From positions 249,022 to 313,021 of the forward strand of contig NZ_KB903833.1 of assembly GCF_000379825.1 (NCBI RefSeq): a DNA stretch of 64,000 nucleotides. The letters run 5' to 3'. Made by a program: the position numbers and the translations under genes. Within the stretch, counting starts at the first letter, position 1. Each line of letters starts with the position of its first letter. Shown piece by piece: positions 12,849 to 16,645 of this stretch. This stretch comes from Longispora albida DSM 44784 (GTDB lineage: Bacteria > Actinomycetota > Actinomycetes > Mycobacteriales > Micromonosporaceae). The notes below the pieces were generated by a model, which was given only the letters and a program-made list of their open reading frames with translations, did not search any database and had not been told where the DNA came from.

Positions 12849-13700
12849 GTGCACCACTCCCCCGCTGATCACGACGCCCGGCGCGCGGCCCACGAGGCCC
12901 GGGTCGGCGCGCTGGTCGCCGGGCACCTGGAGCGGCGCGCCGCCGGGATCAAGCACCCGGTCGAGGACTTCCTCTTCACCTACTACTCCTACAAGCCCGC
13001 CCAGCTCCGCCGCTGGTTCCCCGGCTTCACGGAGGAGCTGGGTGACAAGGAGCTGGCCCGGATCCGGTGGACGCGGGACCTGCTGGCCGCCACGCGGGGC
13101 CGCCCGGCGCACCTGGGCTGCTTCGGCCTGCACGAGTGGGCGATGGTGTACCGGGTGCCGGACACCCGGCACGCCGTGCCGCTGCGGATGACCGGCGAGG
13201 CGCTGGCCGAGTTCGTGGAGTCCCGGGAGATCCGGTGCAGCCACTTCGACGCGTACCGGTTCTTCACGCCGCCGGCCCGGCCGCTCAACCTGCTGAGCCC
13301 GACGAGGGAGTCGCAGGCGGACAACGAGCAGCCGGGGTGCCTGCACGCGAACATGGACCTCTACAAGTGGGCGTACAAGCTCGCCCCGCACGTGCCTGCC
13401 GAGCTGATCGCCGACTGTTTCGAGCTGGCCCGCGACATCCGCACGCTCGACATGCGGGCCAGCCCGTACGACCTGGCCGCCGCCGGGTACGAGCCGGTGC
13501 GGATCGAGACTCCCGAGGGGCGCGCCGAGTACGTGCGCGCCCAGCAGGAGTTCAGTACCAGGAGCGGCCCGTTACGGGACCGGCTGGTCGAGGCGTGCGA
13601 GGTCCTGCTGCGCGAGGGCGTAGGTGAGCGCGTCGACCAGGGCCAGCCAGCTCGCCTCGACGATGTTCGGGTGGACGCCGACCGTCGTGAACTCGTCTGA
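12849..13700 (+). CDS. Conserved actinobacterial protein (3-methyladenine-glycosylase-like annotation)
   Basis: A 283-residue protein with no obvious catalytic motif. Distinctive segments are FLFTYYSYKPAQLRRWFPG, GCFGLHEWAMVYR, CSHFDAYRFFTPPARPLN and LHANMDLYKWAYKLAP. Proteins of this kind are often labelled 3-methyladenine DNA glycosylase in actinomycetes, but I see no helix-hairpin-helix, so the activity is unproven. The GTG start has a -10 6 nt upstream (leaderless). The last 43 codons lie antisense to the conserved end of cimA, so the normal stop seems to have been lost and the tail is probably not part of the fold. Confidence 0.7.
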   Translation: MHHSPADHDARRAAHEARVGALVAGHLERRAAGIKHPVEDFLFTYYSYKPAQLRRWFPGFTEELGDKELARIRWTRDLLAATRGRPAHLGCFGLHEWAMVYRVPDTRHAVPLRMTGEALAEFVESREIRCSHFDAYRFFTPPARPLNLLSPTRESQADNEQPGCLHANMDLYKWAYKLAPHVPAELIADCFELARDIRTLDMRASPYDLAAAGYEPVRIETPEGRAEYVRAQQEFSTRSGPLRDRLVEACEVLLREGVGERVDQGQPARLDDVRVDADRRELV

Positions 13701-15158
13701 GCGGTCCGAGGACTCCACGAGTACCCGGGTGACGGCGTCGGTGCCGTGGGAGCCCGCGAGGATGCGGACCTTGTAGTCGATCAGCTCCAGCCCGGCGAGG
13801 GACGGGTAGTGGGCGACGAGTGCCTGGCGGAGCGCCTGGTCGAGGGCGTTGACGGGGCCGTTGCCCTCGGCGGTGGCGATGACCCGCTCGCCGCGTACCC
13901 GCACCTTGACCGTCGCCTCGGAGACGACGAAGCCGTCGGAGCGGTGCTCGACGATCACCCGGTACGACTCCAGGGTGAAAGGTGCCGGGGCAGGCCCCTG
14001 CGCGCCGCGCACCAGCAGGGCGAAGGACGCGTCCGCGGCCTCGAAGGACCAGCCCTGCGCCTCCAGCTGCTTGACGCGGTCGGTGACGGCGGCGAGGACG
14101 GATGGCTGGCCGGCCAGGTCGAGGCCAAGCTCCCGGGACTTGAGCTCGATGCTCGCCCGGCCAGCCATCTCGGTGATCAGGATCCGCATGTCGTTGCCGA
14201 CGGTGGCCGGGTCGACATGGTTGTACAGCTCCGGATCCACTTTGATCGCGCTCGCGTGCAGCCCCGCCTTGTGGGCGAAGGCCGCGTGCCCGACGTATGC
14301 CTGGTGGGTGTCGGGGGCGAGATTCGCGATCTCGGCGATCGCGTGGGACACACGCGTCGCCTGTTCCAGGCAGCCCGGCGGTAGCACGGGGAGCCCGAGT
14401 TTGAGGACCAGGTTGCCCGCGAGGGCGAACAGGTCGGCGTTGCCCGGCCGCTCACCGTAGCCGTTGGCCGTGCCCTGCACGTGCCTGACTCCGGCCTCGA
14501 CGGCGGCGATGGTGTTGGCGACGGCGCAGGAGGTGTCGTTCTGCGCGTGCATGCCCAGAAGTGCGGGATCCAGGCCGAGGCCGGCGATCGCCCTGGTCAC
14601 CCCGGAGGGCAGAGATCCGCCGTTGGTGTCACACAGGACCACACGCTCGGCGCCGGCTTCGAGTGCGGTCTCCACAACCCTTTTCGTGTACTGGGCGTCG
14701 AAGCGGAACCCGTCGAAGAAGTGCTCGCAGTCGACGAACACCCGCCGCCCCTCGCCGGTCAGGAAGCGCACGGTGTCGGCGACCATCGCCAGGTTCTCCT
14801 CCGGCGTGGTGCGCAGTGCCCGCTCGACGTGCCGCAGATCGCTCTTCGCGACGAGGGCCACGGCCGGGCTCTCCGCGTCCAGCAGGGCCCTGACCTGCGG
14901 ATCCTTGTCCGCTGTCGTACCGGCCTTGCGGGTGGCACCGAAGGCGACCAGTACGGCGTGCCGGAGCTTGAGCTCTGTGCGGGCCCGGCGGAAGAACTCG
15001 GTGTCCTTCGGCATCGCCCCCGGCCACCCGCCCTCGATGAACCCGACCCCGAACTCGTCCAGCAGCCGGGCCACGGCGAGCTTGTCGACGACCGAGTAGC
15101 TGATCCCCTCGCGCTGGGCGCCGTCGCGGAGGGTGGTGTCGAAGAGCTGGAAGTCCAT
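13572..15158 (-). CDS. cimA: (R)-Citramalate synthase
   Basis: A 528-residue protein of the LeuA/CimA family. It condenses pyruvate with acetyl-CoA to citramalate, the first step of threonine-independent isoleucine synthesis. The TIM barrel starts FQLFDTTLRDGAQREGIS, with HAQNDTSCAVANT, GTANGYGERPGNADL and FAHKAGLHASAI holding the metal-binding and catalytic residues. A C-terminal LeuA-type allosteric domain follows (about 400-520). The ATG at 15158 is preceded by AGGAG. A terminator hairpin and a short Ile-containing leader ORF lie just upstream, pointing to attenuation by isoleucine supply. 2-Isopropylmalate synthase is less likely given the FIEGGWPGAMPKD start typical of CimA. Confidence 0.92.
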   Translation of the reverse strand: MDFQLFDTTLRDGAQREGISYSVVDKLAVARLLDEFGVGFIEGGWPGAMPKDTEFFRRARTELKLRHAVLVAFGATRKAGTTADKDPQVRALLDAESPAVALVAKSDLRHVERALRTTPEENLAMVADTVRFLTGEGRRVFVDCEHFFDGFRFDAQYTKRVVETALEAGAERVVLCDTNGGSLPSGVTRAIAGLGLDPALLGMHAQNDTSCAVANTIAAVEAGVRHVQGTANGYGERPGNADLFALAGNLVLKLGLPVLPPGCLEQATRVSHAIAEIANLAPDTHQAYVGHAAFAHKAGLHASAIKVDPELYNHVDPATVGNDMRILITEMAGRASIELKSRELGLDLAGQPSVLAAVTDRVKQLEAQGWSFEAADASFALLVRGAQGPAPAPFTLESYRVIVEHRSDGFVVSEATVKVRVRGERVIATAEGNGPVNALDQALRQALVAHYPSLAGLELIDYKVRILAGSHGTDAVTRVLVESSDRSDEFTTVGVHPNIVEASWLALVDALTYALAQQDLARLDQPVP

Positions 15159-15200
15159 CGGGTTCTCCTGTGGGAGGCGGGCGTGATGAGTACTGGCAAA

Positions 15201-15231
15201 CAAAAAGACCCCCCACGGTCGTGGGAGGTCT
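15201..15231 (-). terminator. Attenuator hairpin in the cimA leader
   Basis: On the minus strand AGACCTCCCAC (15231-15221) pairs with GTGGGGGGTCT (15216-15206) over 11 bp (one U-G) with loop GACC, directly followed by TTTT. It stands 44 nt before the cimA ATG and inside its leader, where a terminator only makes sense as a regulated one. Confidence 0.8.
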
Positions 15232-15271
15232 GCGCGCTGACGTCTTGCTGGCGGAAGCCGGGTCAGCGCGC
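15232..15271 (-). promoter_or_regulatory. Upstream leader hairpin of the cimA attenuator
   Basis: GCGCGCTGA (15271-15263) and TCAGCGCGC (15240-15232) form a perfect 9-bp stem with a 22-nt loop. The 5' arm contains the stop codon of the leader ORF and the 3' arm abuts the terminator stem. A ribosome on the leader would therefore affect its folding. Confidence 0.6.
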
Positions 15272-15298
15272 CGGGCCAATAATGAGCTGGCTCGTCAC
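15263..15298 (-). CDS. Putative cimA leader peptide MTSQLIIGPAR
   Basis: An 11-codon ORF with a GTG start and GGAAAAG 8 nt upstream. Codons 5-7 are CTC ATT ATT (Leu-Ile-Ile). ATT is a rarely used Ile codon in this GC-rich genome. Its stop lies in the first leader hairpin and a strong terminator follows. This is the expected layout of a classical attenuator sensing charged tRNA-Ile, which fits a citramalate synthase of the isoleucine route. Translation is inferred, not shown. Confidence 0.5.
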   Translation of the reverse strand: MTSQLIIGPAR

Positions 15299-15347
15299 GG
15301 GGACAACTTTTCCATGACCGTCCGCTCCGTGGGCACTACTCCCAGAT

Positions 15348-15359: not shown

Positions 15360-15463
15360 GTGACCTATCTCATACTGGGACGGGGGTCATGGCCGGGGCG
15401 GGCGGCGGTCGGGCATTATCTGGAATGACTCCAATCAAGATCCCGCCCTACAGGAGAATTTCT

Positions 15464-16015
15464 GTGCTTACCGTTGGTGACAAGTTCCCCGAGTACGAGC
15501 TGACCGCCTGTGTCTCCCTGGACCCGGAGAACGCGTTCCAGACCATCACGCACAAGTCGCACGAGGGCAAGTGGCGCGTGGTGTTCTTCTGGCCGAAGGA
15601 CTTCACCTTCATCTGCCCGACCGAGATCGCGGAGTTCGGCCGGCTGAACACCGAGTTCGCCGACCGTGACGCCCAGGTGCTCGGCGCCTCCGTCGACAAC
15701 GAGTTCGTGCACTTCGCGTGGCGCAAGGACCACCCGGACCTGCGCGAGCTGCCGTTCCCGATGCTGTCGGACATCAAGCGTGAGCTGTCCGAGGCCGCCG
15801 GGATCCTCGGCGAGGACGGCGTGGCCCAGCGGGCGACCTTCATCGTCGACCCGAACAACGAGATCCAGTTCGCGATGGTGACCGCCGGTTCCGTCGGCCG
15901 GAACGTCTCCGAGGTCCTGCGGGTGCTCGACGCGCTCCAGACCGACGAGCTGTGCCCGTGCAACTGGAACAAGGGTGGCGACACGCTGGACGCCGCCAAG
16001 CTGATGGCCAGCTAG
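15464..16015 (+). CDS. ahpC: Alkyl hydroperoxide reductase AhpC (2-Cys peroxiredoxin)
   Basis: A 183-residue peroxiredoxin. The peroxidatic Cys lies in DFTFICPTEI, the resolving Cys in LCPCNW near the C-terminus, and the catalytic Arg in AQRATFIVDP. It reduces H2O2, organic peroxides and peroxynitrite. The GTG at 15464 has AGGAG at 7 nt; an upstream in-frame ATG at 15425 lacks this and is rejected. ahpD follows after 96 nt and probably supplies electrons, as in mycobacteria. No oxyR gene lies beside it, in contrast to many actinobacterial ahpCD loci. Confidence 0.95.
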   Translation: MLTVGDKFPEYELTACVSLDPENAFQTITHKSHEGKWRVVFFWPKDFTFICPTEIAEFGRLNTEFADRDAQVLGASVDNEFVHFAWRKDHPDLRELPFPMLSDIKRELSEAAGILGEDGVAQRATFIVDPNNEIQFAMVTAGSVGRNVSEVLRVLDALQTDELCPCNWNKGGDTLDAAKLMAS

Positions 16016-16111
16016 TCACTGCTGGTACCAGGTCCGCGGGCCGGGTCACCACGCCCCGGTGGTGAGATGACCCGGCCCTGCCTCGGCGAGCGAAGAGAAG
16101 GAAGCGAAGAA

Positions 16112-16645
16112 GTGGGAATCGACACCCTGAAGGAAGCCCTGCCGGCCTACGCCAAGGACACCAGGCTGAACCTCGGCTCGGTGCTCGGCACGAGCAGCCT
16201 GCCGGACCAGCAGGCGTGGGGCGCCGCGCTGGCCTGCGCGATCGCGGCCCGCAACCCGCAGGTGATCCGCGAGATCGCCGCCGAGGCCGCCGACCGGCTC
16301 AAGCCGGAGGCCGTGGAGGCAGCCAAGGCTGCCGCCTCGATCATGGCCATGAACAACATCTACTACCGGTCCAAGCACCTGATCGGCGACGAGGCGTACC
16401 AGACCCTCCCCGCCCGGCTGCGGATGACCGTGATCGGCAACCCGGGGGTCGACAAGCTCGACTTCGAGCTGTGGTGCCTGGCCGTCTCCGCGATCACCGG
16501 CTGCGGCGTCTGCCTGGAGTCGCACGAGAAGACCCTGATCAAGTCGGGCCTGGGCCGCGAGGCCATCCACGACGCGCTGCGGATCGCCGCCGTCGTGCAC
16601 GCCACGGCGGTGACCCTCGACGCCGAGGCCGCGCTGAGCGCGTAG
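16112..16645 (+). CDS. ahpD: Alkyl hydroperoxidase AhpD
   Basis: A 177-residue all-helical AhpD. The redox pair CxxC plus its His relay is seen in GCGVCLESHEK near residue 130, and the assisting Glu lies in the preceding FELWCLAV helix. With lipoamide-linked SucB/Lpd it reduces AhpC in mycobacteria; that partner set is known from the family. The GTG start is preceded by AAGGAAG at 8 nt. A terminator follows, closing an ahpC-ahpD operon. Confidence 0.95.
   Translation: MGIDTLKEALPAYAKDTRLNLGSVLGTSSLPDQQAWGAALACAIAARNPQVIREIAAEAADRLKPEAVEAAKAAASIMAMNNIYYRSKHLIGDEAYQTLPARLRMTVIGNPGVDKLDFELWCLAVSAITGCGVCLESHEKTLIKSGLGREAIHDALRIAAVVHATAVTLDAEAALSA

Follow-up and report, generated by a model that had tools for sequence, protein, structure and literature searches.

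The putative regulated gene of this locus is cimA, which encodes a citramalate synthase and lies on the minus strand of the window, that is, of the whole analysed stretch of 64,000 nucleotides. Across the intergenic region from cimA, and divergent from it, lie genes for a peroxiredoxin (AhpC-like, although under the curated cut-off) and for an AhpD-family protein (window positions 15389-16645). Since the ahpC-like gene is divergent, there is no gene upstream on the cimA strand that would be in need of a terminator. An extended -10 element, a short leader ORF, a hairpin (P1), a predicted intrinsic terminator, its T-tract, an AGGAG motif and the cimA ATG follow each other in this order on the minus strand (Table 1). 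The leader ORF reads GTG ACG AGC CAG CTC ATT ATT GGC CCG GCG CGC TGA. The arms of P1 are GCGCGCTGA (15271-15263), which includes the TGA stop codon of the leader ORF, and TCAGCGCGC (15240-15232). The terminator stem (15231-15206) has the sequence AGACCTCCCAC-GACC-GTGGGGGGTCT, and the TTTTT tract (15206-15202) is located 43 nt 5′ of the cimA ATG. A first-pass annotation of this DNA had already described the 11-codon ORF with CTC ATT ATT, the 9-bp hairpin containing the stop codon and the 11-bp stem with TTTTT, all of which we confirmed. It had also pointed to a TGGGAG motif further upstream, which is present, but at 15344-15339 rather than at 15338-15343, one base off.

Table 1. Features of the cimA upstream region and flanking genes (window coordinates)
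Feature	Position	Strand	Remark
ahpC-like gene, divergent from cimA	15389-16015	+	
Extended -10, TGG-AAAAGT	15306-15314	-	7 nt 5′ of leader GTG
Leader ORF, GTG start, VTSQLIIGPAR*	15263-15298	-	11 codons + stop
Putative control codons CTC ATT ATT (Leu-Ile-Ile)	15278-15286	-	
Hairpin P1, 9 bp, proposed antiterminator	15232-15271	-	arms 15271-15263 + 15240-15232
Predicted intrinsic terminator, 11-bp stem + U-tract	15202-15231	-	directly adjoins P1
Probable Shine-Dalgarno AGGAG of cimA	15165-15169	-	from sequence
cimA start codon ATG	15158	-	
cimA, citramalate synthase, putative regulated gene	13572-15158	-	TIGR00977, 590.6 bits (cut-off 450)

Our comparison of multiple genomes revealed that this arrangement is widespread. 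Of 121 genomes belonging to the order of the window species, 110 contain cimA, and leader ORF, P1 and terminator are present in 94 of the 110 cimA upstream regions, with conserved Ile codons and covarying helices. Statistics on geometry comprise 93 leaders; the remaining one (L108) was counted as present by eye and excluded from them. The 16 regions lacking the element include three second, diverged cimA copies and at least seven in which cimA lies directly 3′ of a leuB-like gene, one fragment of which was confirmed as 3-isopropylmalate dehydrogenase. The second cimA-like genes (L109, L110 and L111, from three genomes) share 52-57% identity with the query, carry no leader and are located right behind unrelated genes. 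A covariance model built from 48 diverse leaders matched 79 of 80 named actinobacterial cimA loci, which were gathered by protein similarity and partly overlap with the 121-genome sample, some records being the same genomes. These loci span Micromonospora, Actinoplanes, Dactylosporangium, Asanoa and other Micromonosporaceae, and also cover Geodermatophilus, Modestobacter, Blastococcus, Lentzea, Amycolatopsis and Glycomyces. On the phylum scale, the model matched 42 of 396 sampled genomes, and its best matches outside the order were located 5′ of cimA in a single genus, represented by 11 genomes. Since eight of these 11 encode the published S. lividans IlvL peptide MRTRILVLGKRVG (PMC8079986), we took the genus to be Streptomyces. 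Judged by these sequence comparisons, many soil actinobacteria, Streptomyces among them, have conserved the element. Within the whole 6.8-Mb genome the model found one true site, before cimA; a second match, considered as a possible further copy, turned out to be the opposite strand of the cimA terminator.

Most leaders of the relatives share the core Leu-Ile-Ile. ATT makes up 148 of the 175 Ile codons (85%) at the two leader positions, compared to 11 of 478 (2.3%) within the cimA genes of 30 genomes, and to 2.7% in long ORFs of the window with high GC3, the codon background thus consisting of window ORFs and cimA genes. The paired ATT codons had already been singled out in the first-pass annotation, and these frequencies bear this out. 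The codon before the first Ile codon (Ile1) is CTG or CTC in 65 of 93 leaders, a synonymous difference. P1 is predicted in all 93 relatives measured, and 10 of 18 consensus pairs in the element have changes on both sides. Cells changed on both sides number 65 versus 23 in shuffles, none of 500 shuffles reached this value, and the signal was destroyed when the partners were slid. Covariation is seen in the upper part of P1 and in the terminator; the base of P1 (GCGCGC) hardly varies and hence gives no information. Because the single-sequence fold of the window leader is only mildly unusual (z -2.2), the case rests on conservation and not on folding energy.

The spacing of the elements is similarly well conserved. 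For 92 of 93 leaders, the distance between the first of the two ATT codons and the start of P1 is 11-14 nt (12 nt in the window species), and the gap between P1 and terminator is 0 nt in 91 of 93, while the position of the stop codon varies from 9 to 36 nt after Ile1. In the Streptomyces, Glycomyces and f15 lineages the leader ORF continues through the 5′ arm of P1, with an Ile-to-P1 distance near 14, or 11 where a third Ile codon precedes. In several Glycomyces-like and related leaders (L065-L067, L080, L088, L095, L105), the ORF spans the whole 5′ arm and stops in or near the loop; thus, the stop position is free and the Ile-to-hairpin distance is kept. Since the Ile codon-to-hairpin and hairpin-to-terminator distances are fixed and the stop position is free, we regard these two distances as the constrained quantities. 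ORF, control codons, both helices, spacings and conservation can all be read from the sequences, and the fixed spacing agrees with a hairpin that starts at the front of a ribosome halted on Ile1. P1 can be extended by two bases in 58 of 93 leaders, using the AG that forms the bottom of the terminator stem; in the window species it adjoins the terminator with the AG not shared. The partner of the G in this AG is a C in 43 of the 50 four-fold codons directly preceding the stop codon, versus 183 of 335 in the window cimA, which we regard as no more than suggestive since the sequences are related.

A consensus TGGCANANT is located about 7 nt 5′ of the leader start codon in the 93 genomes, corresponding to CANANT with an extended TGG. 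The -10 score is at least 6 in 95% of leaders versus 11% of random positions; the former figure is somewhat inflated, as the start codon was chosen partly by the -10 score, while the consensus itself is plain. Transcription is predicted to start at or beside the leader GTG, and, with the extended -10 only 7 nt before the start codon, the cimA mRNA is probably leaderless, a situation already described for other leader peptides of actinobacteria (PMC8079986, PMC11857589). Further upstream, about 45 nt 5′ of the leader start, the window (15344-15330) and relatives share a conserved TGTGGA/TGGGA element that often has TTCC behind it and could be a regulator site or part of the promoter. This hint at a promoter-level regulator, together with the only mildly unusual fold, would be compatible with an ordinary terminator preceded by a chance ORF, in which case cimA would be controlled at the promoter only. 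However, the conserved Leu-Ile-Ile, the rare ATT codons, the fixed spacing and the covariation all argue against such a coincidence, and we consider it very unlikely. A T-box or metabolite riboswitch appears even less plausible, to the point of being negligible: TGGCACC in some relatives resembles the T-box UGGNACC by eye, but it is not conserved, the window has TGGCCCG, and the element is about 95 nt long with a coding signature. Among the Rfam family models, none matched the element at gathering level, and the weak matches were at chance level.

The first-pass annotation had likened the layout to a classical attenuator, had found no clear antiterminator pairing by eye and had suggested that TGGGAG could pair with CTCCCA of the terminator. 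As in the E. coli trpL and ilvGMEDA type, the position of the ribosome on the control codons is proposed to decide whether the terminator forms. If the leader were of the E. coli trp type, P1 would be the 1:2 hairpin, and an undiscovered segment would pair with the 5′ arm of the terminator upon stalling. The order of ORF, hairpin and terminator would agree with this, as would the ability of TGGGAG to pair with CTCCCA, but no loop separates P1 from the terminator, so that a 2:3 hairpin is missing. The cimA leader, unlike the E. coli type, therefore lacks a 1:2/2:3/3:4 triple; moreover, the control codons lie within the first hairpin in the E. coli layout and before it here. Nor did computation reveal a 2:3 antiterminator, since the pairing potential between the terminator 5′ arm and the RNA upstream of it is lower than for shuffled sequences (mean z +1.2; 0 of 93 leaders below -2). 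TGGGAG itself is located about 46 nt 5′ of the start codon, beyond the extended -10 and for this reason most likely not transcribed, and many relatives have a different sequence in its place, so its pairing with the terminator was discarded. Between the C-rich loop of P1 and the G-run of the terminator, no excess of pairing over shuffles was seen either (mean z -0.16, 93 leaders). Taken together, a trp-type switch is improbable at this locus, and the mechanism is best read as an adjacent-hairpin attenuator.

The leader was folded with the RNA masked by a ribosome at different positions, using footprint sizes from other bacteria (a stall on Ile1 masks RNA to +13). With the ribosome on Ile1, before the 3′ arm of the terminator is made, P1 folds with -17.1 kcal/mol. 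On the second Ile codon, 3-5 nt of P1 are covered and the fold is weaker (-7.5 kcal/mol), and with the ribosome at the stop codon P1 is gone (-2.8 kcal/mol). As P1 can form with a stalled ribosome but is melted once the ribosome is at the stop, P1 is most likely an antiterminator toggled by the ribosome rather than a classical 1:2 hairpin. The terminator forms in every ribosome state by thermodynamic folding, so opposition by P1 is not supported by folding energy; for isoleucine control in a useful direction, P1 must oppose the terminator. Conversely, the leader ribosome could modulate the terminator with P1 promoting termination, either by stacking coaxially or by making the polymerase pause. 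A P1 stacked without a gap on the terminator would stabilise the latter, and GC-rich hairpins can pause polymerase. With P1 intact during a stall on Ile1 and melted at the stop, however, such an arrangement would yield less cimA when isoleucine is short, and we regard it as unlikely.

We propose, at a probability of roughly three in four, that the element is a ribosome-mediated transcription attenuator in which P1 opposes the terminator and citramalate synthase synthesis is matched to the supply of isoleucyl-tRNA. Transcription would begin at the GTG, and a ribosome would load onto the leaderless RNA and read Leu-Ile-Ile. When charged tRNA-Ile is scarce, it would stall, its A site occupied by an ATT codon and its leading edge at the start of P1. 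P1 would fold up against the terminator base, so that the terminator could not fully close and RNA polymerase would continue into cimA. With plentiful isoleucine, the ribosome would reach the stop codon, cover the 5′ arm of P1 and melt it, whereupon the terminator would close and transcription would stop about 40 nt 5′ of cimA. Translation, stalling and the opposition of P1 to the terminator are steps we infer; the opposition could be steric or arise because both helices compete for the lowest part of the terminator stem, and adjoining alone may keep the stem from closing at its base within the exit channel of the polymerase. Isoleucine-sensing attenuation of cimA, as put forward in the first-pass annotation, is very likely the function, and the conserved Ile codons, P1, terminator and spacing in many families strongly support it.

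Attenuation of this kind is already known from ilvB-type leaders in actinobacteria. In C. glutamicum ilvBNC, an element of the type named ilvB-II motif (PMC10272879), mutational work supports an antiterminator which adjoins the terminator and shares three nucleotides with it, and which is switched by stalling at CUU/GUA (PMC11857589). Like the predicted cimA leader, ilvBNC has its transcription start beside the leader start codon (one base off in ilvBNC) and its control codons just 5′ of a hairpin whose base adjoins the terminator, and stalling favours the antiterminator, as we propose for cimA. The two differ in that GCC is shared by both hairpins in ilvBNC, compared to a possibly shared AG in most cimA relatives and no base in the window species, in the control codons and gene (GUA/CUU for Val/Leu and ilvB versus AUU for Ile and cimA), and in the third hairpin H1, of which none was seen in the cimA leader. 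In M. tuberculosis ilvB1, the attenuator is backed by codon replacement and reporter induction: changing LVVI to alanines abolished induction, and in the model the antiterminator becomes masked once the ribosome has reached the stop (PMC13236596). A uORF with control codons, a hairpin proposed to be masked by a ribosome at the stop and an intrinsic terminator are common to both; the ilvB1 system, however, uses LVVI codons before an acetolactate synthase gene and has a 166-nt leader that is not leaderless (PMC13236596), whereas the cimA leader probably is. Evidence pointing the other way comes from the S. coelicolor ilvB leader, where codon changes were without effect according to a survey (PMC1262725).

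The ilvB leader of the genome itself (L192) encodes MLKTQRIVLS* with Ile-Val-Leu codons, a stop codon located at the foot of a GCGCGC hairpin and a terminator 1-2 nt further on, and in Streptomyces ilvB leaders (L257-L259) P1 adjoins the terminator as well. Among the 28 ilvB leaders measured, the P1-terminator gap is 0 nt in 16 and 1 nt in eight, and the main control codons are GTA and CTT/CTC. Thus, predicted actinobacterial ilvB leaders (PMC1262725) and those of L192 and L257-L259 share with cimA rare control codons, a P1 from or near the stop and its contact with the terminator, but they are rich in Val/Leu (GTA, CTT) and some of their P1s run into the terminator without a bulge. A leuA-like gene of a distant actinobacterial genome (L242) has a leader MSQNLLLT* of this format too, with Leu-Leu-Leu, a hairpin from the stop and an adjoining terminator. 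It is conceivable, although we consider it rather doubtful, that cimA (Ile), ilvB (Val/Leu) and leuA (Leu) carry one exchangeable actinobacterial attenuator format for the branched-chain pathway, in which a gated hairpin sterically blocks the adjoining terminator without shared paired bases. Such steric antitermination, if true, would be unlike textbook base-pair competition.

Previously, a 2005 survey of actinobacteria reported trp, leuS, ilvB, cys, leuA and ileS elements and none for cimA (PMC1262725), and the reannotation of S. lividans lists eight leader peptides, cimA not among them (PMC8079986). Our search of open-licence papers likewise yielded nothing relevant on citramalate synthase or cimA with an attenuator or leader, in agreement with the initial impression that no well-described attenuator exists on an actinobacterial cimA. 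The cimA element is widely conserved and probably Ile-specific, and we found no earlier description of it in open-licence papers.

Citramalate synthase is an early enzyme of isoleucine synthesis. As a threonine deaminase gene (TIGR01127) is present in the genome as well, cimA represents one of two routes to 2-oxobutyrate here. If our reading is true, the element would allow Streptomyces, Micromonospora and relatives to control the citramalate route to 2-oxobutyrate in response to isoleucine specifically, at a point separate from the Val/Leu-weighted ilvB leader. Since 2-oxobutyrate is a precursor of isoleucine, anteiso fatty acids and natural-product starter units, the cimA element would be a practical engineering target. 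Moreover, more than 100 natural variants with fixed Ile-hairpin and hairpin-terminator spacing make the mechanism of actinobacterial attenuators directly testable.
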